Source: Cliona cf. orientalis (taxonomy: Eukaryota > Porifera > Demospongiae > Clionaida > Clionaidae). From it: 64,000 nucleotides of DNA. The translations under genes and the position numbers were made by a program. The stretch is taken from assembly GCA_963930775.1 (NCBI GenBank), contig OZ005689.1, forward strand, positions 1,860,001-1,924,000, in the 5' to 3' direction. The notes below the pieces were generated by a model. That model was given only the letters and a program-made list of their open reading frames with translations, ran no database searches and was not told where the DNA came from. Of the stretch, positions 22,749 to 55,628 are shown in pieces. Numbering within the stretch: the first letter of the stretch is position 1; the number at the start of each line of letters is the position of its first letter.

Positions 22749-25700
22749 TTATTTTAATAATGTCTTCCTGGTTGTTTTCGGTAGTGGTAGTGCTGCAAGC
22801 ACACCGACTAGCAGGACGCTAGCCACGATGAGGATGGGGATACTGGGATTGACACGGACGAATGCACCAAAGATGTTCGTTCCAAGTATAGCACCAAACC
22901 TGGCCATCAGCAGGTGAACTCCAGCTGCTGTTGCCCTGCAATATTACAATAAAATGTAATATCCTTATGCATGATTATCGTATGTGTAAAATACGTTTTC
23001 TGGTAAAGGTCGTCAATAGCTACAAAATTATTATAGACGTACGAGAATTCACAATCTATTGAATTGGTGTTCAATTAGAATAAGTATGGTATGTAGCTAA
23101 TTACAGATTCCTCAGCTGGCTATAGAGGAATGTGGTTGGGAATTAACATAAACTTGTAGGTGCATGGAATACTGGATATTATCCGGGTGAGTGAGGCACC
23201 TCCCACCTTTTTAACGTTAAAAATGGTAAGATAATCCAAGCTTGGAGCTAGGGTCTGCACCAGCTAGTTTTCATGGTTATGCATAAAATTTATGTGCATA
23301 CAGAATTCAAATGACACTGTATATACTATTATGTTACCTTATACCTTAGGTGGGTTGGGTAGACTTCGGCTATGATGAGACTGGCGTCATTCCAGGCTGG
23401 AATGGAGAGAGCAGTGAAGAGGCAGAGAATGAGCACCACAAACTCCTCAGAGTGGACAACATAGAGGAGAAACACAGACGCAGTCGACAGGAAGATAGTG
23501 AAAGCTATGGATAGAGCATAATATTATAAGACTCAGCATTCAGGCTAGTTACAGCGCAGATAAAGGGAATGAAGATGAGCGGCCACCCTGTATGGCCTGT
23601 CTATAAGCACAATTCTTGCCTATAGAGGTTTGTAAAGTACACACGGGGGTGGTTGATTTTGATATTTCTTTTGATATTGCCATTAGAGCCAAAAACCGAG
23701 CCCTTTTACTTATCTGTGGAGCCAAAACGACTTATATAGTTGACGACCCTGTGCCTATTATGGTATTTTCTCAATAATATCAAAAGTAGACACCGGTCTG
23801 CAAAAGTAAACCTAGGAGGGGACGAGAAACAGATAATTTATTTTGCATGGCCTAATGGCCACTCATCTTGTCCCAACTGCATGCATGTATCACCATAAAT
23901 ATCTGGGATAGCAACCCTGGCCCTCTATAGTAATGGCCAAACTTTATTCCCAATAGTGGCCGCTAGAGGAACTAAGGGACCTGCTTCGGTTGCATGAAAT
24001 TACACATATATCAAGCTTCTCTCAATGTATTACAGCAGTCTATACTATAGCAGCTTCAGGGGTACAATTGGCATTCAAACTACAGGAGAGTAGCTGCTGT
24101 AGGTGGCGGTTATAGTTAACTTACCAAGCCAGTAGTTTCGTCGAAGTAAATAGACAGCAATTGCAGAAACCACATAGCCGGGAAGAGTTGCAGCTGAAAT
24201 GATGAAACTATCTCGATACACGGTTGAGATATCAGATTGATCACAATTGATGTCAAAATTTGTTACTTGATTTTTGCACATGGTAGCATTATTATCGTTG
24301 AATATTGAACCATTAACGATTGTAGTCTCATTGAACGTAATTCCATTTAAAGTGGTGTTCTTCACTGTCAACTTATCAGTTTCATTCAAGCCATGTAAAT
24401 TGCAGAGAGTGGATGAAGACACGTTCAGCGATAATTCAAAAACGTTAGTCCAAGTTATTCTCAAAAACTGCGAATTCTCAATGGTGCAGTTGTGGAAGGC
24501 ACAATTGTCAGCAAATAAGGATCCATTGATGATAACATTGTCAAAGATCACATCACGAAAGGTCACGTTGCTAAATATTATGTCACTTATCATCCAAGAC
24601 TGAAGCCGAGTTCCCGAGATTACGGTGTCACGAAATGTAGTATTCTTGCAACTACAGTAGCTCTTCAGCGTCTCCGTATTGAAATGGCTCACGATTTGTC
24701 GACAGTTTGCATCGAATGCAGCTTGCTTTTGCTCAGTGGTTATTTCACCGACGTAAGTTGGAAACCACAGCATCACACCAAAGGCACTGTAGTGAGTGAT
24801 CAGGATAAACAGAATGGACACGGAATAAACCTAAGAACAAGACACTAAAATTAATAGCACACTGAATTCAGCTGCTGGATACTGCTACATTATACACCAT
24901 GATAAGTTATTAGTACGCTACTTATAATCATTATTAGTATATTATTATAGTGTGCATAAGTAGAGTGCTATTAGTAATTATTAGTACTGCTACATAAGAC
25001 AGCATGCATTACCGTATAGCGGGAAACTTTTGGGGGAGAAAACTTTCATGAATTTCGCGATTTTTCAGCCATCCGCGAAAGTTTTCTCCACGAAATTCTA
25101 GGCATGCCACACCCATTATGCGACCAGTTTTAACATTCCTCGAAAGTTTTCTCTGTGAAATGCTCCTTTCTTATCAATCCACGAAAGTTTTCTCCCTCGA
25201 AAATTTCCCGCTATACGGTATGTTACATGTATAGCTACAAGAACTTGAAATTACGCAGTAGCTAGGTCACCTGAATGCAAGGGAAAACATTATAACCATC
25301 AGTAGGAGACTGGTTCTGAGAAACTTGCGATGGTAGAGCTCCGATGTCCTCTTTAAAATCTGTAAAAATAGCATCAACAATTGTTTTACTGAATCCTTCA
25401 GTGCTGTTGACAATTCTCACCTCAGTGATCTTGCTTGTGAAGTTCCTCCATCGTCCATCAGAGTGCCTGAACCATGCAGTTCCTCGGACGTCTACATCAA
25501 GGTGGATTCCCTTCACCTGCATGTATATACACGTAACATTATCATGCTATTGCTGTGGCCATAATAATACTAATATTTAGACCCTCCCATCTGTCTTCCC
25601 CCCCCCCCCCCCCCCCCCACCCTACTCCACCCTACCCTGAACAATAGATGCTCTGAAATGTAATATTTCAGTGTACCTTTATTAGTAGAACACTCAATAT

Positions 25701-27656
25701 TGCAGCTGGGGGGTTAAGATTAATGATTGTATGCATCTAGTGTACACATTAGTTATAGCTAATACTGAGAGAGTACACAGCTACTATAATTATTGTACAT
25801 ACTGGATACTCGGGCACATCTTTTTTGTGAAGATGATTGATTCTGTAGACCATCTGCAGAATCTTTAAGGCCTTTCCCTCCTTCCCCGCCTCCAGCAAGT
25901 ATCTCGGTGTCTCTGGCATCACAAGGTAGAGAAGAGCACCCAGGATGGACGGTAGTGCTGATAGAGCCAGGAATATCCTCCAGCTGTGGAATCGGAATGA
26001 GCCAAAGGATGGTTGAATGCTTGTCATTGGAATGAGGATCCAGGCTAGGCCACCACACATGAACCGTCCTAACATCCAGAATAGGCCCTGGAGACTGAGG
26101 AATGGACCTCGATACTTGTTGCGGACGAATTCGGAGTTGTAGGGAAAAAGCACCGGTAGCGATCCACCCACCCTGCAATCAATCATACATGTAGATGGTC
26201 CATCATGTCTGCATGATCTGATAGTGGTATTAGGGCATACCTGGTCATGCATATCACACGCTCCCACTATTATGCACACACTAGAGATGGTATAATAATA
26301 ATATTGTTTGTACTCCTTAAATTATTGTGTCAATCGACATTGTGGAAAAGTTGTGAGTGTTATCAAGACCTAATTTAGTGGAAGGTTACACAAAGGCCAG
26401 TTACTAGAGCTACAAATGACTGGTCATATTCATTACTTAGTGAACGTGCAAGTACAGTATCATGTGATCAACACATGCATGGGCTAAAATATTATGCAAT
26501 ATCTACATTGTATGTGAGCCTTCATGGCTTCAGAGATTGAAATCTAGGTAATGGAACAATAATTAATCATGATACTTTTAATAATATAGAAACCTAACCT
26601 TGCAGTATCTCAGCTCCTCTTTTATTACATAATAATTACTAACAGTTATATAATATCTATTAAGCAATGCAGTACTACCGTCACCTCAACTCAGTTGCCA
26701 ACTCTTTTATGATTACTTAATATTAGCTAATACTAGCACATGTACATGTACATGCACAGTACATGTATACGTGCAACTTACCCAAATCCACTGAAGAACC
26801 TCATCAAAGTGAACAGCCAATAACTCGGCACAAATGCTGAGGCCAAGCCAAACACCCCACTGCAGGTCAGCGACAGCAACATGGTCAATCTTCTCCCAGT
26901 GACGTCGGCAACACTGCCCCAAACGTAGCTACCAAAGAGCATTCCAATGAAGATCACGGAGCTGAGAATCGCACCCTCGGTATTGGACATTCCAAATTCC
27001 TCGGGCTTGTTTAGAAGAGGTAGAACGAATGCCAGAGAGAGGATTTCTACTGCATCAGCGCAAAATGCTATCCCGTTGACGATCATCAGGAAGACGTGAA
27101 ATGGCCCGAATCCGAGATATTTCAACGCCACTTCGTACTCGGTCACGATTCCATCCTCATCAATTTCAGGCTCTTTCACAGACTGATCCGCTGCAGTTTG
27201 CCGAGTCTTTATGAGATTTTCATGATCATTCATCAATGCCTCACCATCTCTTTGACTACCTGTACTTGTGTCAATTCTCACTCTCGGCATGCCTCTGTCA
27301 TTTATACTGAGAGATTCATCTTCGATCATGCCCGTTGCGCCAAAATCCGACGTCTCTATGTCACTGCTTAACATCCTGGGCGAGCTCGAGCCTCGTGATC
27401 GGGCTGCTGCCTTGAATCTGCTCATAGCTGCAGAGTTCCCGGCTGCGACGGTTGTGGCGGTGGCTAACTCGGAGGCCGTGTTCGCACTGAGTCTCAGTTC
27501 ACCATCCTCACTGGCGGGGTCCTGCTCGCTGCAGTCAGAGAGAAGAGCCTTCTTCTCGAGCCGAGCCGAGTCGTCATATCGAAATCGTTTGGACATACCA
27601 CCGGAAAGGTCTTGTAGCTCCAGCTCTGGTTCTCCGTGAAGTATCGAGTCTGACAT
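22749..27656 (-). CDS. SV2-like major facilitator transporter, copy A
   Basis: Twelve-TM MFS protein of the synaptic vesicle glycoprotein 2 type. Exons (minus): 26782-27656, 25803-26172, 25421-25516, 24125-24830, 23345-23504, 22749-22935; about 797 aa. A long acidic, Ser-rich cytosolic N-terminus (~185 aa) precedes TM1. MFS motif A is seen as GSVADVTGRR, and the family block VGGSLPVLFPYNSEF follows. The large loop between TM7 and TM8 has pentapeptide-like repeats (SNVTFRDVIFDNVIINGS), the SV2 hallmark. The last exons match copy B exactly in length (160 and 187 bp). Oddity: the 89-bp exon 4 of copy B has no counterpart. Either TM7 comes from an extended next exon (VYSVSILFILITHYS), or exon 3 runs on to 25271 (246 bp, also in frame, giving ~847 aa). 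Substrate unknown. Start chosen at MSDSILHG; upstream in-frame Mets exist. Confidence 0.88.
25010..25220. mobile_element. ACCGTATAGC-family foldback element in SV2-like A intron
   Basis: The ends are TACCGTATAGCGGGAAA and TTTCCCGCTATACGGTA, a perfect 17-base terminal inverted repeat. It may have a TA target duplication. Internal copies of CGAAAGTTTTCTCC are present. It sits in the intron where copy B has its extra exon 4. Related elements are at 62812 and 63954. Confidence 0.8.
25598..25618. repeat. Poly-C tract (21 C)
   Basis: Homopolymer in an SV2-like A intron, between exons 2 and 3. Confidence 0.9.
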
Positions 27657-28228
27657 AGTCAATAATCCCGGATGAAGACATTTATATGGTGTGAGAATAC
27701 ATACCGTACTACCCATAGTCTCGCAAGCCACACCCTCCAATTGGTCCAACGACATCGAAGGGTGTGGCTTGCGGACTAAACCACAACCCACAGATGTAGA
27801 TCTGTATTAATTTTTCTATCAAACACTATGGTTAAACATATCCTACCTATATTATAGATTTCAAATTTTATGCACAACAACTGCCGTTTCCTCACGTACT
27901 CTTTGAATCCCTCCCCCCGACTCTTCTCTTCACTATACAGAAGGAGCGATATAATATTATTATAGGTCTAGCTATTTTACAAACCGTCCAAATGCACACA
28001 CCGATTCAAGTTCTCTAATAACAACATTATTATGGAATGGAATTTATCACTGAGGCAAACATTTTTAAACTAATGGGACAATGAAAAATAATTTATTGCA
28101 TGTAATGTCATAATATTATAAAAATCAAAGATTCAGATTCGCAATAAAAAAATCATCATGCCTGTTATCACCGTCAGAAAAATAATAATCATTATCCTGT
28201 AATTAAATTAAAATAATTAATAGTAGTG

Positions 28229-28415
28229 CTATTTCAGTAGCGTCTTCCTGGTTGTCTTCGGTAGAGGGAGGGCTACGACTCCGCCCACTAACAGCACCCC
28301 GGCCACGATGAGGATGGGGATACTGGGATTGACACGGACGAAAGCACCAAAAATGTTCGTTCCAAAGATTGCTCCAATCCTCCCCATCAGCAAGTGGATA
28401 CCAGCAGCCGTTGCC
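28229..28415 (-). pseudogene. Orphan last exon of an SV2-like gene (duplicate of B exon 7)
   Basis: 187 bp from acceptor to stop, encoding ATAAGIHLLMGRIGAIFG...TTRKTLLK, nearly identical to SV2-like B exon 7. The splice acceptor, reading frame and stop are intact. Its only partner is the exon at 38808-38967; no 5' exons exist in the window, so an independent full gene is unlikely. It could still be spliced into transcripts that start upstream, for example from the B promoter. That is speculative. Confidence 0.8.
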
Positions 28416-28526
28416 CTGCACACACAGAAATCAAGAAGAGCATCGCTGTTAAAGAAGCCAATTGTCTCCAAGCACTTAAGCATAAGAAATTATTATTAAT
28501 ACTCAACATACACTGTAATACCATAC

Positions 28527-28853
28527 AACATAAGGGGGGACCCTTAATCCATGTATGTAATTGGTAAGCTGCAACATAAGGGGGGACCCTTAGTACATGT
28601 ATATAATTGGTAAGCTGGTGTAAGCGGCTTACAACGTAAGGGGGACCCTTAGTACATGTATGTAATTAGTAAGCTGGTATATAGCTATAAGCGATTTATA
28701 ACATAAGGGGGGACCCCTTAGTACATGTAATTGGTAAGCTGGTGAAAGCAATTTATAACATAAGGGGGGGACCCTTAGTACATGTATGTAATAATTATTG
28801 GTAAGCTGGTATAAGCGATTTACAACGTAAGGGGGGACCCTTTATTATACAAC
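28527..28853. repeat. Tandem repeat, ~62-bp unit, about six copies
   Basis: Units share CATAAGGGGGGACCCTTAG, then TACATGTATGTAATTGGTAAG, with AAGCGATTTACAACG-type ends. The matching place in the B locus (about 48060-48115) has only about one unit, so the array expanded after the duplication. Confidence 0.85.
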
Positions 28854-29540
28854 CAAAAATCAGAGCAACAATTTTCTAGAGGCCTGCGCTGCTAAGCAGG
28901 TGCTGGCACTAGCCACTGAGCCTCGAATTACATCTCTATGTTTTGTGAGCATGTACTGTTAATAGATTATCATGCATACTAACCACATTATCCCATGATT
29001 GTGACATTAAACATACCTCTGAAATAAAAAAAAAAAATTATAACCCCATCCTCCCGTCGACCTTCCGAGCTCTAGGCTGGAACGTTGGTCAGGGTACACT
29101 GCAGACATTACTGCAGCCAGTTAGGCTTCTGTGTCACAGCCACAGGGGACCAAAGTCAGCCTATGGTGGATGTACAGGCTTTATCCAGGATGGTGGATAT
29201 TCAAGGGAGGAACCTGGGCGACCCCTAAGCTGTAGTGTCGTGGTTAGTGAACGTCGCCGTTAGTGAAATGACAATTATGCGCATGCGCACGTGCGGCCAA
29301 CGAAGGTGCAATATTAACCCTATTAAAACTCCAAAGTCCGTATGTACGGCTAGCAATCCGAATTCCCTGCGAGGGCGGGGTCTGGGGACGACACTAGTAT
29401 CGCCGAGTATCGCGCCTATGTTTCTGAGTAAATCTAAGGATGGGTGCCTATAACTCAGCTCAGAGTAAGCGTAATACCCCCAGCTGCAGGGTAGCCTAGA
29501 ACCCAGGCTCTGAGCATGGGTTCTATGCTGGGTTCGAGGC

Positions 29541-29653
29541 TAGTCTCGTAAACCAGACGCCTATTCCGCAGTACTGGGTGTATTTCATCTTTCCGCGTGC
29601 TGGTGATGAAATACACCCAGCGCTGCGAAATAGAGGTCTGGTTTAAGAGACTA
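29541..29653. mobile_element. TAGTCTCG-type foldback element, 113 bp
   Basis: Ends TAGTCTCGTAAACCAGAC and GTCTGGTTTAAGAGACTA. Flanks are GGTTCGAGGC (left) and GGTTCGATGC (right), a 10-base near-duplication with one mismatch. It sits inside a further palindromic surround (about 29484-29675). Confidence 0.65.
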
Positions 29654-29740
29654 GGTTCGATGCTACCCCTGGTAGGCCCTGCATGCATGAAGTTTTTGTA
29701 TCACTGTAATGCATAATTAAATGCATAGCAGCAATAGCTA

Positions 29741-30770
29741 CTCATCAGGCTCAAACGCATAGACTCGGATTAGGTAGTCAACTATAGCTATTCAATATAA
29801 GCCATTTATTGATGTTCACTAACTGCAGCAGCTTCAACGAAGGGGCTGTGGTTAGTGGAAACACTGATGAGACTAGCATAATCAGATGCAATGATCACTA
29901 GAGTCAAAACCATAACAGATTAGGTGGTCGGCTATACATTATCCGTTTTAATGTTCACTAACTGCAGAAGCTTCAACGAAGGGGCTGTGGTTAGTGAAAA
30001 CAAGTATAATCAGATGCAATACTCATCAGGTTCAAAGGTATACACATTAGGTGGTCAACTATGATGAGACAAGTATAATCAGATGCAATGCTCATCAGGT
30101 TCAAAGGTACACAGATTAGATGGTCACCTATGCATTATATGAGTAACTTTATTCATGTTCACTAACTGCTGCAGCTTCAATGAAGGGGCTGTGATTAGTG
30201 GAAATACTGATAAGACAAGTATAATCAGATGCAATGCTCATCAGGTTCAAAGGCACACAGATTAGGTGGTCACCTATGCACTATGAGCCATTTTATTGAT
30301 GTTCATTAACTGCGGCAGCTTCAACGAAGGGGCTGTGGTTAGTGGAAACACTGATGAGACAAGTATAATCAGATGCAATGCTCATCATGTTCAAAATTTT
30401 GAACATGATGAGCATTGCATCTGATTATACTTGTCTCAACAGTGTTTCCACTAACCACAGCCCCTTTGTTTAAGCTGCCGCTGTTAGTGAGCATGAATAA
30501 AATTACTCATAGTGCATAGTTGACCACCTAATCTGTATGTTTAAATTACTCATAGTGCGTAGTTGACCACCTAATCTGTATGCTTAAAGCATACAGATTA
30601 GGTGGTCAACTATGCACTATGAGTAATTTTATTCATGCTCACTAACAGCGGCAGCTTAAACAAAGGGGCTGTGGTTAGTGGAAACACTGATGAAACAAGC
30701 ATAATTAGATGCAATGCTCATCAGGCTCAAAGGCATACAGATTAGGTGGTCAACTATGTTGTAGTAATGG
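29741..30770. repeat. Left array of ~145-bp repeats
   Basis: Repeats read GTTCACTAACTGCAGCAGC, then GGGGCTGTGGTTAGTGGAAA, then GATGAGACAAGTATAATCAG, TGCTCATCAGG and GATTAGGTGGTCAACTATG. About 30395-30588 is inverted relative to its neighbours, producing two palindromic junctions (GTTCAAAATTTTGAAC near 30390 and ATGCTTAAAGCAT near 30588). Confidence 0.85.
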
Positions 30771-31275
30771 AGCTACATGCCCTATTCAAATTAAAGAAAA
30801 TTTCTACCTGCTCCTTCTAATAAAGTTGATAATGCTGCTCCTGCAACTGCAGCGTTATTAATAATTTTCATCTGCAATCTCAACCTGTAACTTTACTGAT
30901 AATAGGTGTTAATTGACTAGTAGACTGACTAATAGCTACTAGTAGCCCTTACAATCACTTTAAATGCTTCTTACAGTCTACGGTGAATTCCGATACAATA
31001 ACTCAACAAAAATAATATCATGTAACTTCCACATAAGAATAAAATATCTACGTAACTTAATTCAACATAAAAGTCAAATATCTACAGTTCCTACACCCCC
31101 CTCCCGTTGTATAATAATAGAAGGTAGGATCTTCTTTCAAGTAGTAGCAGCGTTCTGTTCTTGGGTGTCATAATATTATTTTGATGGCTGCGCTTTTGTT
31201 TGTGCTATCTGGAAGTTCAGGGATACTGTATATGACACACTTGAACTCTGAAACAGAAATATAGAGGAAGATCAT

Positions 31276-32276
31276 TATTATGGGGTGCCGATTGTGTCAA
31301 AATTCCTCACTGGCAGGCATTTTGAAGAGTCTGGAGATTATGAAAGTGGCTATTATTATAATGGATATTTGCATAAAATTAATCACAGTGCATAATTTGA
31401 CATGAATCACGGACATTAATTTTAAATTAGAGATGCTACAACTGTGGAAATTTATGAAAGTAGTGGTTATTCACATAAATCTCACTGGTAGACGTTGTGT
31501 AACTTGCAGCAGATATTTGCACAGTTTGTGATAAATTTCTGTACGTAGTGGCAGATGTTACGCATGCAGAAATTTACGAAAGTAGTGGTTGTTTAAAAAA
31601 AACACAGTGGACATTGAACTCAATATAATATTATAGTACAATAGGTTGTGTGCCCCATGTAAACACACACATGAGCACAAAATTTAATACTGGACCCACG
31701 AGCCAAGACTTGGGGCATGCCAAGGTTAATTATTAATTTTAATTCTTCAGGGGCCTTTCCGATGACCATGGACTTGCATAATCATCCCTGGCTCTTCCCG
31801 ACCCCTCCCACTTCTGACCAAAAGTACTCATAACACGATTAAATTTTGCTAATTGTATTAGCCAATAATAATAGATCTCTGTCAACATATCTTTGCTTTG
31901 GTGGTAGTTTAATCCCCACAGCACCTTTTATATATGCATGGGGCACACAACCTATGGGGTTGACGATATTGATTTTAATGTCTACTATACATGTGTTCTT
32001 CTGTAAACATCCACTACTTTCGTAAATTCCTGTGACATCACTAAAATTTAATGTCTGCAATTTATACAGTATCTACCAGTAAGATTTACATAAATATCCA
32101 CTACTTTCATAAATCTCCACAGTTGTAGCATCTCTAAAATATGTCTTCTGTGATCCATGTCGAAACTTTCACTGTGATTTATGTGAAATTAATATCCACT
32201 ACTTTCGTAAATCCCCAGACTAGCTTTTCTAAATGCCCGCCAAAAATGAATTTTGACACAAATGGCACCCCATACA
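31276..32276. mobile_element. Nested foldback element, ~1 kb with ~380-bp arms
   Basis: Left end TGGGGTGCC, right end GGCACCCCA, flanked by TA on both sides. The arms, about 31276-31660 and 31945-32276, are imperfect inverted copies and carry several ATTTACGAAAGTAGTGG-like repeats. No coding sequence. Confidence 0.7.
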
Positions 32277-32279
32277 TTA

Positions 32280-32570
32280 TCAATGTATGAGATAAACTTT
32301 TGCATTGTTTAGTGTGCGATTAAGAATGCGATATGGCCCATGCATAGGAATAGCATGGCTAAATATCATGGCTTCTTTCTCATTTGGTATAAACACCATA
32401 AAATCTAGCACCAATTCCATACTGTGGCAGTTTGGAGTGTTTGTCATACATTTCTTTCTGCTTGACTTGAGCTTGCTTGGCACGATGCTGCTCTTTGTCA
32501 ACTCCAAGCTTCTGAAAGGTAAGTAGTAATCTCCAACATCTACTTCATAATTTAGTGCATTTGTTAGCAA
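32280..32570 (-). pseudogene. Decayed retrotransposon integrase C-terminal fragment (Ty3/gypsy-like)
   Basis: A 96-codon frame includes VLDFMVFIPNEKEAM, then HGPYRILNRTLNNAKVYLI. This resembles the end of Ty3/gypsy-type integrase, where a GDLVxVxxP strand is followed by HGPYRV and a short core. The upstream integrase and reverse transcriptase are not visible. The fragment lies inside the 8-kb element, probably as a nested relic. The assignment rests on motif resemblance alone. Confidence 0.4.
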
Positions 32571-33399
32571 ATTTTCAGTAGGTAAGCATGGATATCTCTA
32601 CCATAGATCAAGTAGATTATGGTGATTTTCTTGTTTCTTGGATGGTGCCCTATATACATATAAATAATAGAAATGGTATATCTGTTGAACAAGGCTGGTC
32701 AACAAGATGACTCCCTGCAGGTGGATGCTGTAGCCCTGAATTTATATCCTAATCTGACTGAAAACAACTGACTCAAGGATCTTAGAGCATGTTTGCTGTT
32801 AATATAATAATGTAGCTCACCCTCTAGTACATCGAGGAATTTAAGCTGACCTGCATGCGCATTTTAACCTCTTAGCAAGTCTAGGGCCTGGTGCTTCTCA
32901 AGCTCACACGATACTTTTACTATTCCTGTCTCCGCTGCATACCTATCCAAGTTGCTATGGCTAGTCTGGATCTCCAGTTTGCTTCCTGTATAGCTAATAG
33001 CTTTTGGGAGAATCTCCTCAACTTCTCGTCATTTCCCCTATTTTATAGCAGCAGATAATATTATAGACACAATATACCATATTGTTATTGATAGACTGAC
33101 TAGCTAAAAGCCCTTACAATAACCTTGCATGGTGAGTATACATTAACTCATTATCATATGATAAAATTAATATTCAATATCCATTTGCCTACAATCATAA
33201 TAACAATTTGAAAATATAAAAGTTTGCTCTATTCACTAAACGATATTAGAGATAAAAGTTAGTCTAAGAGCATAATAATATTCACAGACCATGTCCGCAA
33301 GCTAAATTTTAAGGATCATGCAGTACGTAAGTGGACATGCATGTTCATGATAACCAGCCTCTGTGGCGACTGGCGACCTAGTCTGTTGCGACTTTGCAC

Positions 33400-35830
33400 C
33401 TAGAAGCTGCGGCAGTTAGTGAACATTAATAAAATGGCTCATAATATTATTGCATAGTTGACCACCTAATCTGTATGCCTTTGAGCCTGATGAGCATTGC
33501 ATCTGATTATACTTGTCTCATCAATGTTTCCATTAACCACAACCACCAAATGTGTATGCCTTTGAACCTGATGAGTATTGCATCTAATTATAGCTACTTG
33601 TCTCATCAATGTTTCCACTAACCACAGCCCCTTCATTGAAGCTGCTGTAGCATTGCATCTGATTATACTTGTCTCATCAGTGTTTCCACTAACCACAGCC
33701 CCTTCATTGAAGCTGCCGCAGTTAGTGAACATGAATAAAATTAGCTACTCATATATTGCATAAGTGATCACCTAATCTGTGTGCCTTTGAACCTGATGAG
33801 TATTGCATCTGATTATACTTGTCTCATCAGTGTTTCCACTAACCACAGCCCCTTCATTGAAGCTGCCGCAGTTATTGAACATGAATAAAATTACTCATAT
33901 GTTGCATAGGTGACCACCTAATCTGTGTGCCTTTGAACCTGATAAGCATATGCATTGCATCTGATTATACTTGTCTCATCAATGTTTCCACTAACCACAG
34001 CCCCTTCGTTCAAGTTGGCTCAGTTAGTGAACATCAATAAAATGGCTCATTTTGCTGTTGATCACCTAATCTGTATACCTTTGTGCCTGATGAGCATTGC
34101 ATCTGATTATACTTGTCTCGTCAGTGTTTACACTAACCACACAGCCCCTTCGTTGAAGCTGCCTCAGTTAGTGAACATCAATAAAATGGCTCATTTTGCA
34201 TAGTTGACCTCCTAATCTGTATACCTTTGAGCCTGATGAGCATTGCATCTGATTATACTTGTCTCATTAGTGTTTCCACTAACCACAGCCCCTTCATTGA
34301 AGCTGCCGCAGTTAGTGAACATGAATAAAATCACTCATATATTGCATAAGTGACCATCTAATCTGTGTGCCTTTGAACCCGATGAGTATTGCATCTGATT
34401 ATACTTGTCTCATCAGTGTTTCCACTAACCACAGCCCCTTCGTTGAAGCTGCCGCAGTTAGTGAACATCAATAAAATGGCTCATAGTGCATAGGTGACCA
34501 CCTAATCTGTGTGCCTTTGAACCTTATGAGCATTGCATCTGATTATACTTGTCTCATCAGTGTTTCCACTAACCACAGCCCCTTTATTGAAGCTGCCGCA
34601 GTTAGTGAACATGAATAAAATCACTCATATATTGCATAAATGACCACCTAATCTGTGTGCCTTTGAACCTGATGAGTATTGCATCTGATTATACTTGTCT
34701 CATCAGTGTTTCCACTAACCACAGCCCCTTCATTGAAGCTGCCGCAGTTATTGAACATGAATAAAATTACTCATATGTTGCATAGGTGACCACCTAATCT
34801 GTGTGCCTTTGAACCTGATAAGCATTGCATCTGATTATATTTGTCTCATCAATGTTTCCACTAACCACAGCCCCTTCGTTGAAGTTGGCTCAGTTAGTGA
34901 ACATCAATAAAATGGCTCATTTTGCATAGTTGATCACCTAATCTGTATACCTTTGTGTCTGATGAGCATTGTATCTGATTATACTTGTCTCATCAGTGTT
35001 TCCACTAACCACAGCCCCTTCGTTGAAGCTGCCGCAGTTAGTGAACATGAATAAAATCACTCATATATTGCATAGGTGACCACCTAATCTGTGTGCCTTT
35101 GAACCTGCACTGTAAAAAATGAATAGTGACTGTCACTGCGTGGTAGTGACATCTGTGGCAAAATGTAGTGACTGTCACTACGTTTTGCCACAGATATCAC
35201 TACCACGCAGTGACAGTCACTATTCATTTTTTACAGTGCATGATAAGCATTGCATCTGATTATACTTGTCTCATCAATGTTTCCACTAACCACAGCCCCT
35301 TCGTTGAAGTTGGCTCAGTTAGTGAACATCAATAAAATGGCTCATTTTGCATAGTTGATCACCTAATCTGTATACCTTTGTGTCTGATGAGCATTGCTTC
35401 TGATTATACTTGTCTCATCAGTGTTTCCACTAACCACAGCCCCTTCGTTGAAGCTGCCGCAGTAAGTGAACATGAATAAAATTACTCATATGTTGCATAG
35501 GTGACCACCTAATCTGTGTGCCTTTGAACCTGATGAGTATTGCATCTGATTATACTTGTCTCATCGGTGTTTCCACTAACCACAGCCCCTTCATTGAAGC
35601 TGCCGCAGTTAGTGAACATCAATAAAATGATGGCTCATTTTGCATAGGTGACCACCTAATGTGTATGCCTTTGAACCTGAATAGTATTGCATGCATCTAG
35701 TTATACTTGTCTCATCAGTGTTTCCACTAACCACAGCCCCTTTGTTGAAGCTGCCTCAGTTAGTAAAATCAATAAAATGGCTCATATATATATAATGTAT
35801 ATTATGTATATTATAGCTGACCACCTAATC
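33400..35830. repeat. Right array of ~145-bp repeats, about 16 copies, opposite orientation
   Basis: Units recur about every 140-150 bases: GCATTGCATCTGATTATACT, then TGTTTCCACTAACCACAGCC, then GCTGCCGCAGTTAGTGAACA, then AATAAAATCACTCAT and ACCACCTAATCTGTGTGCC. This is the reverse complement of the left array unit. One copy is split by a palindromic element at 35106-35240. Confidence 0.9.
35106..35240. mobile_element. Near-perfect palindromic MITE, 135 bp, inside the right array
   Basis: Ends TGCACTGTAAAAAATGAATA and its reverse complement. Inner arms include GTGACTGTCACTGCGTGG and GCCACAGATATCACTACCAC. It interrupts a repeat unit at GAACC/TGATAAGC. The near-identity of its arms suggests recent insertion. 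Confidence 0.85.
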
Positions 35831-36637
35831 TATTACTATGTTGCACCTGATGTGTATTGAGGCTATAGTTACGCTTGTCTCATCAGTGTGATCATGATAG
35901 ATACTCTGCATCTGGTAGAGTGTTGCATGCATCTAATTATGCTGCAGTCTCTACTATTAATTAAACCACATGTAGACCCTTTGTTGAAATTGTAGTAGCT
36001 AGTTTAATTAAGCTTGCAGCTGTTAGTGAACTGTGTGATAAAGTCATAATTATATTGTGTATGCCTTTACTGGCAGAATTCTGTAGCTTACCAACAGTTA
36101 CTAATGTGCATTAATATTATTATTAATAGATGACGGCTAAGTTAGTGATAAGATTAATGGCTGTTATAATCTTTGGTATCAATATTACACTGGAATAGTT
36201 TCATATTAAAAATATTGCTCCACTAATCACACTCTCTCTTGATCACACATTTCATAGCTGCATGATCGCCTACAGTAATAAGCTTTCACCCATGGGTCAG
36301 GAGTTATTAAAGCTTCCAGATATCAATTCTATGCAGCTATAGTTAGCTAACATAATAGCTAACCAATGCTGTATATACATGTTAGTTATGAACGAACACA
36401 TAATATTTTATATCACTACGCAGGTATGAACAAAAAATTTAATTTTAAAATTAAGCCCTTTCTCTACACTCATTGCTCTCCAGATAGCTAACACATTCTT
36501 CTTGGAACTCAGCTGCACTTGCCAGTCTTGTGACTATAATATACAATATATAGCTTTGGTGGATGATTATGACTGCAAAATGTAGCGGTAAAAAAATGAT
36601 AAATCATCATTAATTTTTTCCTCGGCCTACACAGAGA

Positions 36638-36693
36638 TAGCCTCGTCCCCAGGCCCCTTCCAACGCGAAGGGAGGGGCCTGAGGGCGAGGCTA
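36638..36693. mobile_element. 56-bp TAGCCTCG foldback element with 9-bp target duplication
   Basis: Ends TAGCCTCGTCCCCAGGCCCC and GGGGCCTGAGGGCGAGGCTA. It is flanked by perfect 9-base direct repeats ACACAGAGA (36629-36637 and 36694-36702). Confidence 0.85.
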
Positions 36694-36973
36694 ACACAGA
36701 GAATGATTAGAGGAGCATGCAGGGCAGTATTAGCTGGAACCCATGGCCACATGTAGCTAGTGTGCTTTGTTTCATACACCCTGGCCCTTTGTCCATGTTT
36801 AATTCAGCGGTAGGCCCTGCCATGGACTGACTTAATAGTCTGGCGGACCAGCCCCATGGCATACGGGCGTCACAAAGCGTGGCCGACTAGCTAGCAGGAT
36901 CAGACGCTTCCGAATTTAGTTCTCAGCGGGCACGCGCGCGCAGGACGCACACGTACTCGTTTTAAACTTCGGA

Positions 36974-37158
36974 GTGGCTATTGATCCGGCAGTCGACGGT
37001 TAGGGGTTCCTCTAGGGTAAAATTATGGGTTTAGGCTAACCGTTGGGGTCTAGAACTTGCCTCGCTGCTCACAAAACGAGATACAAGCGAATCGTGATTG
37101 CGCATGCGTCAACGATCTCCATAGGCAATGTATTACGGACTGCCGGATCAATAGCCAC
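36974..37158. mobile_element. Foldback element near the right end of the 8-kb element
   Basis: The 21-base ends are GTGGCTATTGATCCGGCAGT(C) and their exact inverse at 37138-37158. TTTAAACTTC occurs on both outer sides. Non-coding. Confidence 0.7.
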
Positions 37159-37285
37159 GGCGTTTAAACTTCCCGCCTGATGGCGAGCGGCGGCCCGCTC
37201 TTGTAATATTCATTAGCTCACTAACGGCGACGTTCACTAACCACGACACTACATAAGCCATATATAACCATGTGCAGTTTTCAGC

Positions 37286-37923: not shown

Positions 37924-38807
37924 GTTTTCAGCTGCAGATGCCAGAGGGGGTACCGCTGACATCGTCTAGCCCCGATAGTCCCTACCGGAAAACGCTATTT
38001 ATTGAGCTGGAACAAGGGGTAGCAAAACGCGTATGGGTTTACGTTGGAATGTACACACCGTCACATGACGTAATTAAAAAGCTATGAATATCATTAACTA
38101 CACCGCGTCGCGCATAAGTGTATCTCAGTAAGGCCCCTCCAAATCAATTAATAGTTTCTCATCCCCCCTTAATTTCCGCCCGCATGCATTTTGTGATTAG
38201 GAGCACAATGCAAAAGTATACCGCATCCTTTTTTGCAAGCGATTTTGACGACCATTTCCATCAAAAATTGCACATATTGACGACCATTACCACCGCCCGC
38301 CCGCATCAATTTTGAGCTCAGAGGGGATGAGAAACTACTAATTGATTTGGAGGGGCCTAACTGAAAGAGCTTTGGAGCTGGAACAAAAACCAGAAGGTAG
38401 CTCATAACCAGATGAAAGCAGCTATCATGGTTCTGAACACGCTACTTCATATCTAGACTGTACCATAAAAATAGCTAGACTCTTCTTCCTCAAATTGATA
38501 TTAGCAAATGATAATACTTCGGCCAAAAATACTTGTAGGTATTGTAGGGTAATGTAGGTCAGCAATCTGATTGGTCAGTTGGAGGTCCACTATTTCACTT
38601 CGCTTTGTTTGGGATGCTACAGCCTCAGGCCTCTAAGTGACCAATCGGATCACAGTATTTGTTACAACTATTCTTGCAATTTTTGGAAAAAACATAACCA
38701 AGAGTACCTCTGAAATGAGAATAATTATGCCATATTATCAAGGACATTAATTTTTCAACCATTCCCAGGGCAAAGCCTATTATAATAATAATTTTTGCCT
38801 TACATAC

Positions 38808-38967
38808 CTCAGGTGGGTTGGGTAGACCTCGGCTATGATGAGACTGGTATCGTTCCAGGCTGGAGTGGAGAGAGCAGTGAACAGACACAGCATCACTACC
38901 ACAAACACTTCAGAGTGGACGATGTAGAGGAGAAACACAGAGGCTGTGGACGCCAGGAGGCTGAAAG
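38808..38967 (-). pseudogene. Orphan penultimate exon of an SV2-like gene (duplicate of B exon 6)
   Basis: 160 bp with intact acceptor and donor, encoding AFSLLASTASVFLLYIVHSEVFVVVMLCLF...IIAEVYPTHLR in pieces, matching exon 6 of SV2-like B. Its downstream partner exon is ~10.4 kb away at 28229-28415. No upstream exons follow; duplication ends in the GA-rich tract just upstream. Confidence 0.8.
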
Positions 38968-39196
38968 CTAGAGAGAGAGAGGGAGGGAGGGAAGAAGGGA
39001 GAGGGGAAGAGAGAGGGAGTGGGAGATTTTATTATAATAATACTATTAGCTATGCATGAAAAATATCCGAGATCTGAGCTTAATATTAAAATTAATGACA
39101 TTATGTATAGCTATTACAGAGAGAGACAGAACACACCAGCCGGGTAGCTAGCTATGGTGTAGCTAGGTAGCTAGCTATCTGGTTATTGATTGTGCA

Positions 39197-46026: not shown

Positions 46027-46680
46027 ATCATACAAAGCCAGATTGATGGAAGTACAAAGCCCAACATATCAGACTGCCAAATGTACTCCCACAAAGTCCA
46101 ACATATCGGGCCGACGGAAGTATACCCACAAAGCCCAACATATCAGACTGACAGAAGTACACCCACAAAGCCCAACATATCAGACTGACGGACATACCAC
46201 CACAAAGCCCAACATATCAGACTGACAGAAGTATACCCACAAAGCCCAACATATCAGACTGACAGAAGTACACCCACAAAGTCCAACAAATCAGACTGAC
46301 GGATGTACCCCCACAAAGCCCAACATATCAGACTGACAGAAGTATACCCACAAAGCCCAACATATCAGACTGACGGACGTACCCCACAAAGCCCAACATA
46401 TCAGACTGACAGACGTACCACCACAAAGTCCAACATATCAGACTGACGGAAGTATACCCACAAAGCCCAACATATCAGACTGACAGGAATGCTGCCAATT
46501 TTAGCTTATTCCGGTACCACAGCTAGTTCTCAGTTCAGAATTCAAAACACTTAAAGTTATTATCATGAAATTGGCAGCATAGCAGACTGATGAACATGCC
46601 CCACAAAGCCCAACATATTAGACTGACATAAGTACACCCAGAAACCCCAATATATCTGACTGACAGACATAGAACCCAAA
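46027..46680. repeat. ~37-bp tandem satellite, about 14 units, interrupted
   Basis: The unit is CCCACAAAGCCCAACATATC followed by AGACTGACAGAAGTATA. Units alternate slightly (GACGGA/GACAGA) and the period is not a multiple of three, so the open frame seen across it is not a gene. Bases 46489-46580 are a separate insertion. Confidence 0.9.
46489..46580. mobile_element. 92-bp foldback insertion in the 37-bp satellite
   Basis: Left end ATGCTGCCAATTT; right end AAATTGGCAGCAT. It interrupts one satellite unit and the repeat resumes afterwards at CAGACTGATG. Confidence 0.75.
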
Positions 46681-47456: not shown

Positions 47457-47753
47457 GAATCCGGACTCTTCTCTCCACTACTGAAGGATAGATCTAGCTA
47501 TTAAATTTTTATGAATTATTCGAACCGTCCAAATACACACACAAATTCATATTTAACATTATTACGGAGAATTAATTTTATTAAGGCAAAAATTAAATAA
47601 TAACGGGACAATGAAAATGTATTGTGTAATGTCATAATAATTATTATAAAAATCAAAGATTCAGATTCGCAATAAAAAATCATCATGCCTGTTATCACCG
47701 TCAGAAAAATAATAATCATTACCCTGTAATTGAATTTAAAATTAACAGTAGCG

Positions 47754-50700
47754 CTATTTCAGTAGCGTCTTCCTGGTTGTCTTCGGTAGAGGGAGGGCTG
47801 CGACTCCGCCCACTAAAAGTACCCCGGCCACGATGAGGATGGGAATACTGGGATTGACACGGACGAAAGCACCAAAGATGTTCGTTCCAAAGATTGCTCC
47901 AATCCTCCCCATCAGCAAGTGGATACCAGCCGCCGTTGCCCTGTACACACAGAAATCAAGAGCATCGCTGTTAAAGAAGCCAATTGTCTCCAAGAACTTT
48001 AGCATAAAAAATAATAATATTAATACTCAACATACACTGTAATACCATACAATATAAGCATGTATGTAATTGGTATATATAAGCGATTTACAATGTAAGG
48101 GGGGACCCTTAGTTACACTACAATAATATTATACAACGGAAAATATTTTTTCAGAGCAACAATTTTCTAGAGGCCTGCACTGCTAAGCAGGTGCTGGCGC
48201 TAGCCACTAAGCCTCGAACTACATCTCTATGTTTTGTGAGCATGTAGATTATCATGCATACTAACCACATTATCCCATGATTGTGACATTAAACATACTT
48301 GTGAAATAAAAAAAAAAAAAATTATAACCCCATCCTCCCATCGACCTTCCGAGCTCTAGGCTGGAACGCTGGTCAGGGTAGACTGCAGACATTACTGCAG
48401 CCAGTTAGGCTTCTGTGTCACAGCCCCTATAGTCCCTACCGGAAAACGCTATTTATTGAGCTGGAACAAGGGGTAGCAAAACACGTATGGGTTTACGTTG
48501 GAATGTACATACCGTCACATGACGTAATTAAAAAGCGATGAATATCATTAACTACACCGCGTCGTGCAAAAGTGTATCTCAGTAACGGAAAGAGCTATGG
48601 AGCTGGAACAAAAACCAGAAGGTAGCTCATAACCAGATGAAAGCAGCTATCATGGTCCTGAACATGCTATACACTTTATATCTAGACTGTAGCTACCATA
48701 GCACACATGAAAATAGCTAGACTCTTCTTCCTCAAACACATCATAATGATATCAGCAAATAATAATACTTAGGCCAAAAAATACTTGTAGGTATTATAGG
48801 GTAATGTAGGTCAGCAATCTGATTGGTCACTTGGAGGTCCACTATTTCACTTCGCTTTGCTCTGGATGCTACAGCCTCGGGCCTCTGAGTGACCAATCAG
48901 ATCACAGTATTTGTTACAATAGTAGGGTAATGTAAGTATTGTAGGTATTGTAAGGTATTGTAAGGTATTGTAGGGTAATGTAGGGATTGGTCACTTGGAG
49001 GTCCACTATTTCACTTCGCTTTGCTCCGGATGCTACAGCCTCAGGCCTCTGAGTGACCAATCAGATCACAGTATTCGTTACAACTATTCTTGTAATTTTT
49101 GGAAAAAACATAATAAGAGTACCTCTGAAATGAGAATAATTATGCCATATTATTATCAAGGACATTAATTTTTCAACCATTCCCAGGGCAAAGCCTATTA
49201 TAATAATAATTTTTGCCTTACATACCTCAGGTGGGTTGGGTAGACCTCAGCTATGATGAGACTGGTATCGTTCCAGGCAGGAGTGGAGAGGGCAGTGAAC
49301 AGGCACAGCATCACTACCACAAACACTTCAGAGTGGACAATGTAGAGGAGGAACACAGAGGCAGTGGACGCCAGGAGGCTGAACGCTAGAGAGAGAGAGA
49401 GAGGGAGGGAAAAAGGGAGAGCAAGAGAGAGAGAGGGAGGGAGGGAGAGGGAGAGAGAGAGAGAGGAGGGAGGGAGAGGGGAGGTGAGGTTAAAACAAAA
49501 TTATAATTTAAAGAGCTCAGTTAACATTAAGAAAATAATCCCTCCTTAGTGTCAATCGTCAAACAATAATCCTATTCATCATTATTATTTTTTTACTGAG
49601 TCAACATTTAGCCTCGTCCCAGGACCAAAGCTGATTCCCCTGAAAAGCTGGGAGGGTCTGGGGACGAGGCAAGGAACTTCCAATGACTATCACTTACCTA
49701 GCCAGTATTTTCTCGTCAGGAAGTAGACAGCAATGGCCGACGCTATATTACCAGGAAGAGCCGAAGCCGAGACAAAGAAACTATCCCTGTAGACAGTGAA
49801 AGAATCGGACCTCTCACAATCAATCGTGGACTCTAACAATGCTTTATCACACGTGCTATTGCTCTCCGGAGCGAGTACTAATTCAGATGGGCTGGTTATG
49901 CTCGTCAGATTTGTGAGATATCCATTGAGAGTTGTATTATAGAGTATCATAGGAGGACCCATAGTCATATTGTTGCCACGAAGATCGCATACGAAAGACG
50001 AAGATATGTTCAAACCTTCCAACAATACTCCTTCCCATGATAGTTGCACAAATTTCGAATTTTTCACAACAGAGTTGCGAAACACGCAGTTATCAATAAA
50101 CCGAGAGCTATTTATGACGACGTTGTCGAAAGTTACGTTCTCGAACGTCACGTTACTAAAAATAGCTTGACCGACCATCCACGATTCGAGGTGAGCGTTG
50201 GAGAGTGAGATATCTTTGAAAACGGTGAAATTACACCCACAGTAGCCACGGAGAGAGGAGATACCGATGGATGTCACGTTTTGCTGGCATTTCTCTTCCA
50301 GCTGAGCTCTGTCGCGGCTCGTGGTGATGTCAGTGACGTAGGTAGGATACCACACTGATACACCATACGACCTGCATGTATGTATGTGTATGAGAAATAA
50401 AACCATGACAGGGATTCCCCCAGAACAGAATCCAAACTGGGTGCTTAGCAGTGCTCATAAGCTCCTGATGATATTCATAGGCTTTTAATTAAGTTGTCTC
50501 TAAACTCCACCCATTTCTTTGATGTTTATTCAATTAGCCCAAAGTCAAACCGGGTGGCCCACCCTGATTCAGGTATGCTGTGCATGATATTGTACATGTA
50601 GGTACTATTCTTAGGATTTTTAATGATCCTAATATCAGTGGAACCCCTCTATTCACCATGTATATTCCGGATACCCTTGGGACAGCTATAAGTGTCCTGA

Positions 50701-53700
50701 CTAAAGGAGGTGTCCTCATTTCAGGGATCATTTTGTATATACATCTCTAGCTGGGACCATAGGTAGTGTCCTGATTAAAGGAGATGTCCTCATTTCAGAG
50801 GTATTCTTATAGAGGGATTCCACAAGAATTTCTGAGTTCGAGTATGCAAATGCAGCAAATTGGGATCTGCAGAAGCTTCTAAAAAGTTTATGTATCTATC
50901 TAGTGGATTATCTAACTGTAGGGACTTACCCAAACGCAAGGCAGAACTGGATCAGCATCAGAAGAATGGTGCGTCGAAGCAGCTTACTGTTGTACAGCTC
51001 TCGTGTCCTGTTTAGTACCTGCATTACGTAATGATTACATCATACACAGCTAAGACCGCTGATATGCATTGCATAAATCTACATTACATAAATTATTAAT
51101 GATTACATCATACACAATTAAGGCCACTGATTACACATTATGATTACATAATGATTGCATCATATTGCTAATTAACTAAAACCGCTGATTATGCAATATA
51201 TTATATACATACACATTATGCAATGCTTCTAACAATAGCCAGAGGTGAAATTAAAGTCCCTGAAGTGAAGCCAACCCTGGAGACTATGGAAGCATACAAA
51301 GTTGCCACTGAAATACCTTTTGACCTATGCAATTAACAGGTGGTCAGTATTACATATCTCTAATAGCGTACATGTACATGTTGCTAACTTGTAGTGTTTC
51401 GAGTAATGGATTACATCATCACTGTTACACGTGCGTATGTACGGGATTCCCTCATAAAAGCATACCATGTTCACCAACATGCAACACATGCCAGTGTTCT
51501 CCCTAGGCCCTTTCAGCATAGTGACCCCTTCAATAGTCATAATAACTAGGGAAATGCACAGCATTGTGGGGCGAGCCTGAGCAAGCAACAGATGTTTATG
51601 TTGCCCCAAAAAGGCTAGTTATAGGCTGATCACGATTCACAATTATGCGCTTGTTGCTAAGTAGTGTTCCGTTTGATATGATCTTTGGTTGTCCAAGCTG
51701 ACTCTCTCATGTCAACGTGCACTCAAGTCTCGTTGCCTGGGCCTCTCTATCTCTCTGCGCATTGCCGACCAGCTAAAATAAATGCTGCTCATTTATAGCT
51801 GCCTCTGTTCAACACTCTGCTCTTTGCCTTCTTCGCTGTTCCTCGCGCTGTTGAGCTGACTCCGATTGATACTGAACTGTCGATCGCCACATATCGCGTA
51901 CCGACATTGACAGACACGAGTGTAAATTTGCAAGTTGCTGAATTAGAACAGCATATAATACGGAATCCGGAATGATCGACATTGGGCGGGGCGTAACTAA
52001 GGAAGAGACCGACGTACCATATATATATCTCATTCGCGCAGTTCATACCCGTTTATGTGGGGCTCGCTCAGGCTCGCCCCAATTATTATTTCTTTGACGT
52101 GGTAATCAAACATATATGTAACTGGAGAACTGGTAAAAGGTTAGCTACAAATAATAAATCTAGCTTTTTGCCTTGTTGGCCAATGCATCCACTTTGGAGC
52201 ATTTGGTAGAAAATGTTCATGTATACGGTACATGTACATGTACATTATACCTCGAATAGCCTGCTGATGAACCGGTCAAATCTTCCACTGCTGAATCTCA
52301 GGCCCGAAGACACTCCACCATCCTTCTCCAAGTGAATGCTCTTTATCTGGAAAGGAAAATTAATAATCATCTACTAATGAATGAAGTTTTGTGCAATTTA
52401 CATAATATGCACGACATTATACATAATAATTATTATTAAACATCACAGCAGTTATCAGATTTTGGGGGTAAGGTTTTAATATCATTTCTGTTACAATTTA
52501 CAAAACATAGCTTTGTAACTCTTCAGTTGTACTGCTTCTACACACAGTGTGCGGTAACATAAATTATTATTGGTTAATCAGATGCCGATTTTTGTATATT
52601 TGAAAATTTTTACATAGCACTCTCCAAGAAGCCGTGATCGTCTAGTGGTTAGGACATTACGTTGTGGCCGTAATAACCCAGGTTCGAATCCTGGTCACGG
52701 CAAGTCATCTCTTTTTTTTCCCTGATATGGTCAAATATGTGTCTAGTGGTCGTAGCCACCTGTAGTTCAAGCTCCAAATGGCAAACTCCCATACATTGCA
52801 CACCTCTTTAAAGCAGTCACCTCCCTGCTATAGCCACTGATCACTACGGTGGCCCATTCTAGACGGGTTCCACAGTACTTGATAAAATTTTTATACAACT
52901 CTCACCAAGAAGCTGTGATCGTCTAGCGGTTAGGACGTTACGTTATAACCCAGGTTCAAATCCTGGTCACGGCAAGTCATCTCTTTTTTTTAACTGATAC
53001 AGTCAAACAGTATAGTGGTCACTGAGTAAAGCAGCCACCTAGTTCAAGCTCAGAACTCCATACCTCATGCACATCTCTTTAAAGCAGCCACTAGCTGATC
53101 GCTGGTCCATTATACATGTACATGTAGACGGATTCCATAGTACTTGATAAAATTTTTACACAACTCTCCCCAAGAAGCCGTGATCGTCTAGTGGTTAGGA
53201 CATTACGTTGTGGCCGTAATAACCCAGGTTCGAATCCTGGTCACGGCAAGTCATCTCTTTTTTTTCTGATATCCAAAGAAGAACTATATATACATGTATA
53301 GCACAGTAAAGACATCTCCTTTAATCAGGACACCGTGCACGGTCCTAGCTACATGGAATAGTGGACAAACTGCCTGAAACGAGGACATCTTCTTTAATCA
53401 GGACACTGTAAGTTGTCCCAGGGATGTCTGAAATAGAGGTTCCACTGTATTATCATGTTTAGATTAGGGTTAACATTGGTGGTTATAAAAAGCTACAGCA
53501 GCGATGTCCCCAGTGCTAAATAATTAAAGAGCAGTGCTGTGGTACACATCAAAGCATACCAATTTTATCAAATTAGTTAACCATGTGTAATAAACATCTA
53601 AGGAACTGTAGACCTTCAAGAGCAGTGCTGCATGCTCTAACCACATGCATGGTACTGTGCTTTGTAGGTCAGTTGTCTAGGAAAGTTAGGGAATGGCATC

Positions 53701-55465: not shown

Positions 55466-55628
55466 TGTTGAGGTCCTTCTATCAATGAGCGTCACGGGAT
55501 GAAGTTAATAGGATTGGTAAGGGTCGTCACACAGTTTGTTTACACGTACGTGACGACCCTTGCCGAATATGCCTATTGTCGACCCTTTACCGTATCACTT
55601 GCTAGTATTGCACCACCACATGATCTGA
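55466..55628. promoter_or_regulatory. Compact divergent promoter region, SV2-like B / ASCC2
   Basis: 163 bp between two divergent start codons. It holds an exact 12-base inverted repeat, AAGGGTCGTCAC (55519-55530) and GTGACGACCCTT (55550-55561), with a 19-base loop. A related GTCGACCCTTTACC follows at about 55578. A role as a shared regulatory element is inference. Confidence 0.55.

Follow-up and report, generated by a model that had tools for sequence, protein, structure and literature searches.

A tandem-repeat foldback transposon in the sponge Cliona cf. orientalis with probable membership in a Ginger-like, Gypsy-integrase-related family

Ginger transposons combine a Gypsy-type integrase transposase with terminal inverted repeats (TIRs), TGTNR ends and a target-site duplication of 4 bp, or of 5 bp in TDD-4/5, according to the part of their description available to us (PMC2836005); the duplication lengths of such elements are also given in the accessible part of PMC10045372. 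Tandem-repeat TIRs with secondary binding sites are regarded as a convergent trait across superfamilies in the available text of PMC3573991. Here we report on a mobile element of 8023 bp that occupies positions 29231-37253 of a 64,000-nucleotide stretch of Cliona cf. orientalis DNA (contig OZ005689.1, positions 1,860,001 to 1,924,000; this whole stretch is hereafter called the window). Our preferred reading, to which we give a probability of about 0.8, is that the element belongs to a family of Ginger-like (Gypsy-integrase-related) DNA transposons of foldback architecture and is a non-autonomous copy that has undergone internal deletion. We consider the family Ginger-like based on its integrase transposase, its TIRs with TGTNR ends, its short duplication and the fact that no reverse transcriptase was found, and it is very likely mobilised by a retrovirus-like integrase.

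The two 36-bp TIRs of the window element are identical, both starting with TGTAG (TGTAG...CTACA ends), and past them the similarity of the two element ends continues at ~90%, out to ~50 bp. The original prediction, a note made from the letters of the window alone, had taken these TIRs and the TAAGC on either side of them as the marks of a mobile unit, and had proposed a search for empty sites with a single target. Because the left flank of the element lies within a dispersed repeat, the joined flanks could be searched for in the genome. Among the 40 matches scored (of 676 candidates), 38 cross the junction, though with no more than 27-28 right-flank bases covered, and the other two are the element's own flanks. 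All five of the empty sites that were fetched hold one TAAGC in the same sequence context, and the boundaries are therefore base-exact and the insertion was accompanied by a 5-bp duplication. The window element has transposed, in agreement with the prediction.

Genome-wide searches with the terminus and the unit of the arrays, also proposed originally, returned 25 matches to the 60-bp left end (left and right ends together) and 573 matches to the unit in the 216.8-Mb genome. Our family comparison is based on 20 + 10 fetched genome stretches plus the window, and includes seven elements with two ends: E1 (the window element), E2 (C14), E3 (C6:5.61 Mb), E4 (C5:8.23 Mb), E5 (C4:6.50 Mb), E6 (C2:14.49 Mb) and E7 (C1:10.07 Mb), which range in length from 2.4 to 16.2 kb. 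All seven end at the same bases on both sides, so that the differing boundaries named in the original prediction as grounds for refutation were not seen. Five have a perfect 5-bp duplication, and all have array units on at least one side, E7 having four, in + orientation only. The target sequences (TAAGC, GCACC, GCTTG, TATGG, ACATG and CGGGG/CGGGC) have no obvious common motif. The remaining loci have one end or none and appear truncated or decayed.

The integrase was identified in a sister element, E12 on C13, in which a - array, core, + array and right TIR extend over at least 36.9 kb. Between its arrays the core holds a single long open reading frame (ORF) of 1140 codons stop to stop, with its first methionine at 15, and this frame has Pfam matches above the curated cut-offs to the integrase core domain rve (8.1e-14) and, C-terminally, to Josephin (4.8e-9, or 1.9e-10 for that part alone). 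The protein matches the integrase of prototype foamy virus (PFV) at 2e-17 and has a DD35E set (D178, D244 and E280, the second D and the E being separated by 35 residues); in addition, H95-H107-C146-C150 fits a loose H2C2 pattern, and there is no GP[YF] in the protein. By these matches, the frame is that of an integrase of DD35E, Gypsy/retrovirus type that carries Josephin at its C-terminus. Josephin is a deubiquitinase fold, and C934, H1053 and D1071, placed by eye, are presumably at the positions of the ataxin-3 triad. A phmmer search of the Josephin part against solved structures found no solved Josephin, only a chance match (E 0.021). The C13 gene is the sole six-frame Josephin match found in a search of the genome that intron-split host genes could escape. 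When the genome was searched with the C13 protein (40 of 663 candidates scored), the matches comprised the gene, a fragment of its C-terminal part in E3 (99%), and 38 others of at most 32% identity. No match to a reverse transcriptase was found in Pfam among 11 core ORFs of at least 80 amino acids.

Other features of the C13 element and its relatives are recorded here as separate observations. The right array of E12 contains a nested long terminal repeat (LTR) retrotransposon of 4.84 kb (L035:5824 to L036:663), which is probably young; its two 303-bp LTRs are identical, and it has an open frame of 1391 codons. A frame of 191-192 codons is present in three elements (L033:5226-5798, L019:6513-7085 and L017:5979-6554), the Pfam match of the L033 frame being only 0.09, and is possibly a second transposon gene. 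Two element cores have a 125-codon frame antisense to the transposase remnant (L021:4650-5024, matching L024:5335-5709), which by eye resembles a Gypsy integrase end; the L021 frame has no Pfam match.

The original prediction had seen no transposase in the window element and, indeed, this copy has no open gene, but it does retain a decayed piece of one, as the three frames of 30766-30898 show residues of the C13 gene in broken form. The window and C13 cores are 72% identical over 1138 columns and 67% over 376. With the sister's Ginger-like integrase frame and this remnant in hand, the earlier statement that no superfamily could be assigned is now largely resolved, but a full fit to a Ginger group was not obtained. 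In E1, E5, E15, E4, E6 and E8 the array is joined to the gene near codon 1083, and since they share this junction these elements most simply descend from a single deletion derivative, while the array/gene junction of E3 is a different one, near codon 1026. With the terminal blocks as reference, the left array is the side from which the gene fragment of E1 and E5 points inward; for the fragment in E3, E4, E6 and E8 and for the gene of E12, it is the right (of E8 and E12 just one end is seen, and E15 has undergone further rearrangement). As the array junction is shared, such a flip of the core would most simply have occurred via recombination between the mirrored arrays.

The arrays have a period of mostly 142-152 bp, in part organised as a 290-bp dimer. 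Two opposed arrays of ~145-bp units, as originally described, are present in the window element, the units being mainly in - orientation on the left and + on the right, with the refinement that the left array has a small inverted part (Table 1). The architecture is that of a foldback element, with long inverted ends built of tandem repeats. The unit carries CCACTAACCACA and, ~30 bp later, CAGTTAGTGAAC; the TIR carries GTGGTTAGTGAAC and GCCGTTAGTGA in the same direction. The short motif GTTAGTG is found 42 times in the 8023-bp element versus four times in the remaining 55977 bp of the window. When the TIR was locally aligned with the majority unit, the scores were 12 and 10 on the two strands, and among dinucleotide shuffles a score of 12 on either strand was reached in 1/2000 and scores of 10 on both strands in 0/2000. 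These analyses supported the predictions that the core of the TIR is present in the unit once in each direction and that there are many TIR-like sites inside the element. The further suggestion of a satellite born from a transposon end fits the motifs shared by unit and TIR, but the unit matches listed (part of the 573) form 14 clusters by eye, and because a TIR end is present in 13 of these 14, no clear free satellite is seen.

We give about even odds to the possibility that the array units are transposase-binding sites, with neutral growth as the main alternative. According to this alternative, which we consider less probable than not but a serious competitor, the transposon is the same but its arrays are functionless, having arisen as neutral satellite growth from duplicated end sequence via unequal exchange and slippage in inverted repeats. 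Consistent with this, the higher-order blocks vary by copy, as identity within the left array peaks at a lag of 4 filtered units in E12, 5 in E3 and 9 in E8, and a 2.48-kb block is repeated at 98.8-99.7% in the right array of the C13 element. In addition, the mean similarity of units between elements is almost the same for the same side (0.860) and opposite sides (0.856). In line with either view, the core of E12 is 99.7% identical to that of E3 and 99.1% identical to that of E2, each over 4.6 kb, versus 90 aligned right-array units in E12, 25 in E3 and 22 in E2 (90, 25 and 23 with another filter), so that the arrays change in length far more quickly than the cores change in sequence. There may be assembly error in the long arrays, though the repeated blocks differ from one another.

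Other properties of the units speak against functionless arrays. We ranked 10-base windows of the unit by conservation in 454 nearly full units, kept from 565 matches in the fetched loci and the window, with 16 elements equally weighted. All of the 11 top windows overlap TTTCCACTAACCAC, and CAGTTAGTGA comes 12th; when a different phase was used to cut the unit (452 units), CCACTAACC ranks 5 of 137 and is overlapped by all four windows above it. At both phases tried, conservation within the unit is highest at the first TIR-like motif (motif A), but these ranks are modest evidence as neighbouring windows are not independent. The orientation of the units, which is mostly kept by side with few inverted units, also counts against neutral growth, as does the presence of units in all of the two-ended copies, including the four in E7.

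Several observations weigh against our reading of the window element and of its arrays. Two of the seven two-ended copies are without a perfect duplication, E3 having four of five bases matching and E7 none. There is a single open gene copy in the family, and the transposase-bearing copy sought by the original prediction was obtained in the form of an open 1140-codon integrase-Josephin frame but not as a complete element, since the left end of E12 falls in an N run and only the right end is seen. The Pfam match to H2C2 is weak (0.026). The second motif of the unit ranks only 28 of 137 windows when the unit is cut at that different phase and so, from the ranks at both phases, the first motif is clearly constrained but the second weakly. 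Inverted units in E1, E4 and E15, the last of these being the further rearranged element, break the mirror pattern. Lastly, the role of the arrays is one that we infer, and neutral growth explains the array lengths equally well.

Three other explanations fare much worse. It is very unlikely that the element is a foldback of the Mutator type, from which such architecture usually stems, carrying the integrase frame as a passenger. The layout resembles that of Tetris, which was placed in Mutator by its authors (available part of PMC4079207), but the duplications are of 5 bp and not 8-10 bp, the TGT..ACA ends are like those of integrase elements, and six deletion copies have remnants of the integrase gene at one and the same junction. 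Moreover, the ten other core ORFs of at least 80 amino acids have no Pfam match better than 0.09, nine core ORFs having nothing at 0.1. Even less likely is a virus-derived or Polinton-like element using an integrase, for which the retrovirus/Gypsy-type integrase and the long inverted ends could speak, but polymerase, capsid and ATPase were unmatched among the same ten ORFs, the duplication is 5 bp versus 6 bp in Polintons (available part of PMC10045372), and in the one scan of viral contigs that looked for transposase relatives, eight stretches fit a pattern but none of them encodes a relative. An assembly artefact or chance repeats is scarcely credible since, while long arrays are difficult to assemble and the C13 copy has an N run, the ends and arrays recur at loci on different contigs and both the empty sites and the shuffle results argue against it.

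Under the Ginger-like reading, a transposase from the C13 copy or a relative would bind the GTTAGTGA motifs of the TIR, pair the ends, excise the element and insert it into a target cut with a 5-bp stagger. Extra binding sites for the same transposase, oriented by side, could then be provided by the arrays and raise affinity or aid pairing; unequal exchange would lengthen and shorten them, and recombination between the mirrored arrays would flip the core. As for the Josephin domain, our guess, with the OTU and Ulp1 domains of Ginger1 as analogues, is that it might have a stabilising or regulatory effect on the transposase or on the complex that this forms. A bolder proposal, which we put forward only tentatively, is that the family represents a third Ginger-type branch, in which an integrase-Josephin fusion is combined with arrays (up to 90 or more units per side) that act as a graded transposase platform or decoy and as a gene-flipping switch. 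If this were true, the mirrored arrays would be a built-in switch for the orientation of the internal gene.

Table 1. Features of the window element and its target site, in window positions.
Feature	Positions	Strand	Remarks
Left target-site duplication, TAAGC	29226..29230		Single copy in 5/5 fetched empty sites
Left 36-bp TIR	29231..29266	+	TGTAG start; GTTAGTGA motif twice in same direction
Left terminal block	29267..29480	+	Common to family
Partly palindromic stretch in left block	29484..29653		Unmatched in 7/10 other well-preserved left ends; present in E5, E7, E11
Left array, ~145-bp units	29713..30759	-	Small inverted part 30397-30584
Core	30760..33399	-	Inverted relative to ends versus C13 element
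Decayed fragment of the family's integrase-Josephin gene	30766..30898	+	~Codons 1083-1123 of 1140; 82% DNA identity to C13 gene
~1-kb stretch with long inverted arms, within core	31262..32276		Absent from C13 core
Right array, ~145-bp units	33400..35886	+	Partly 290-bp dimer
Near-perfect palindrome, MITE-like, within right array	35106..35239		By eye
Right terminal block	35900..37217	-	Shared in part with family
Right 36-bp TIR	37218..37253	-	
Right target-site duplication, TAAGC	37254..37258		

Both terminal blocks of the window element contain stretches that are unmatched in many relatives. The ~1-kb stretch within the core, whose inverted arms are ~68% alike, looks like a nested inverted-repeat insertion based on the fact that the matches to the C13 core stop and resume at window 32277 and 31261, positions that are two bases apart in C13.

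In the surroundings of the element, window 24075-29141 and 47461-55495 are diverged duplicates with pentapeptide-like and sugar-transporter stretches in both. Window 27916-29141 and 38358-39019 are both copied at 47461-49435, without an element of this kind in between. A tandem array of 37-bp units (~12 copies) is present at 46054-46486. Near some copies of the family we noted, by eye, kinase-, Ig- and death-fold-like fragments.

In the comparisons that follow, each known system is represented by the part of its description that was available. Ginger1 (Bao et al. 2010, PMC2836005) is similar to the window family in its Gypsy-type integrase, TGTNR ends, TIRs and C-terminal cysteine protease domain. 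However, that domain is OTU or Ulp1 in Ginger1 and Josephin in the C13 protein, the Ginger1 targets are CCGG/CCGT in contrast to the mixed 5-bp duplications of the window family, and Ginger1 has YPYY and GPY/F, neither of which was found as a string in the C13 protein by a simple pattern search. Ginger1 elements are also smaller (2.6-7 kb), the C13 element being at least 32 kb minus the nested retrotransposon. The Ginger2/TDD group shares with the window family an integrase-type transposase, TGTNR ends, the lack of GPY/F and, in TDD-4 and TDD-5, 5-bp duplications, but it has an RTATAY target for which there is no counterpart in the window family, and the available text mentions neither a protease nor arrays (PMC2836005). 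The window family fully matches neither Ginger1 nor Ginger2.

With regard to the arrays, the closest counterparts are in other superfamilies. In Tetris, a foldback element of Drosophila virilis, the tandem repeats of the TIR share 37 bp with the TIR end and form variable satellite-like arrays, but its duplications are 8-10 bp, its unit is 220 bp, it is assigned to Mutator, and its authors did not find a copy with a transposase (PMC4079207). Galileo, of the P superfamily, likewise has long, internally repetitive TIRs with secondary transposase-binding sites, binding which we only infer for the window family, and repeat numbers that are unequal between the sides of one copy; it differs in its P-type transposase, its 7-bp flanking sequences and its at most three ~210-bp repeats per TIR (PMC3573991).

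There are thus precedents for TIRs made of tandem repeats, in Galileo and Tetris, and for proteases in Ginger elements, namely OTU and Ulp1. Neither Josephin in Ginger-type transposons nor the combination of such TIRs with a Ginger protease was found in the literature searched, a search whose scope did not extend to subscription papers and Repbase. The window family would add a Gypsy-integrase-type transposon to the list of those with tandem-repeat TIRs, one whose genome also holds an open gene for a putative transposase, and could serve as a system for testing how site number affects integrase-type transposition and for testing satellite-like growth within a transposon. It also suggests a third family of ubiquitin-type cysteine proteases in Ginger-type transposases, beside OTU and Ulp1.

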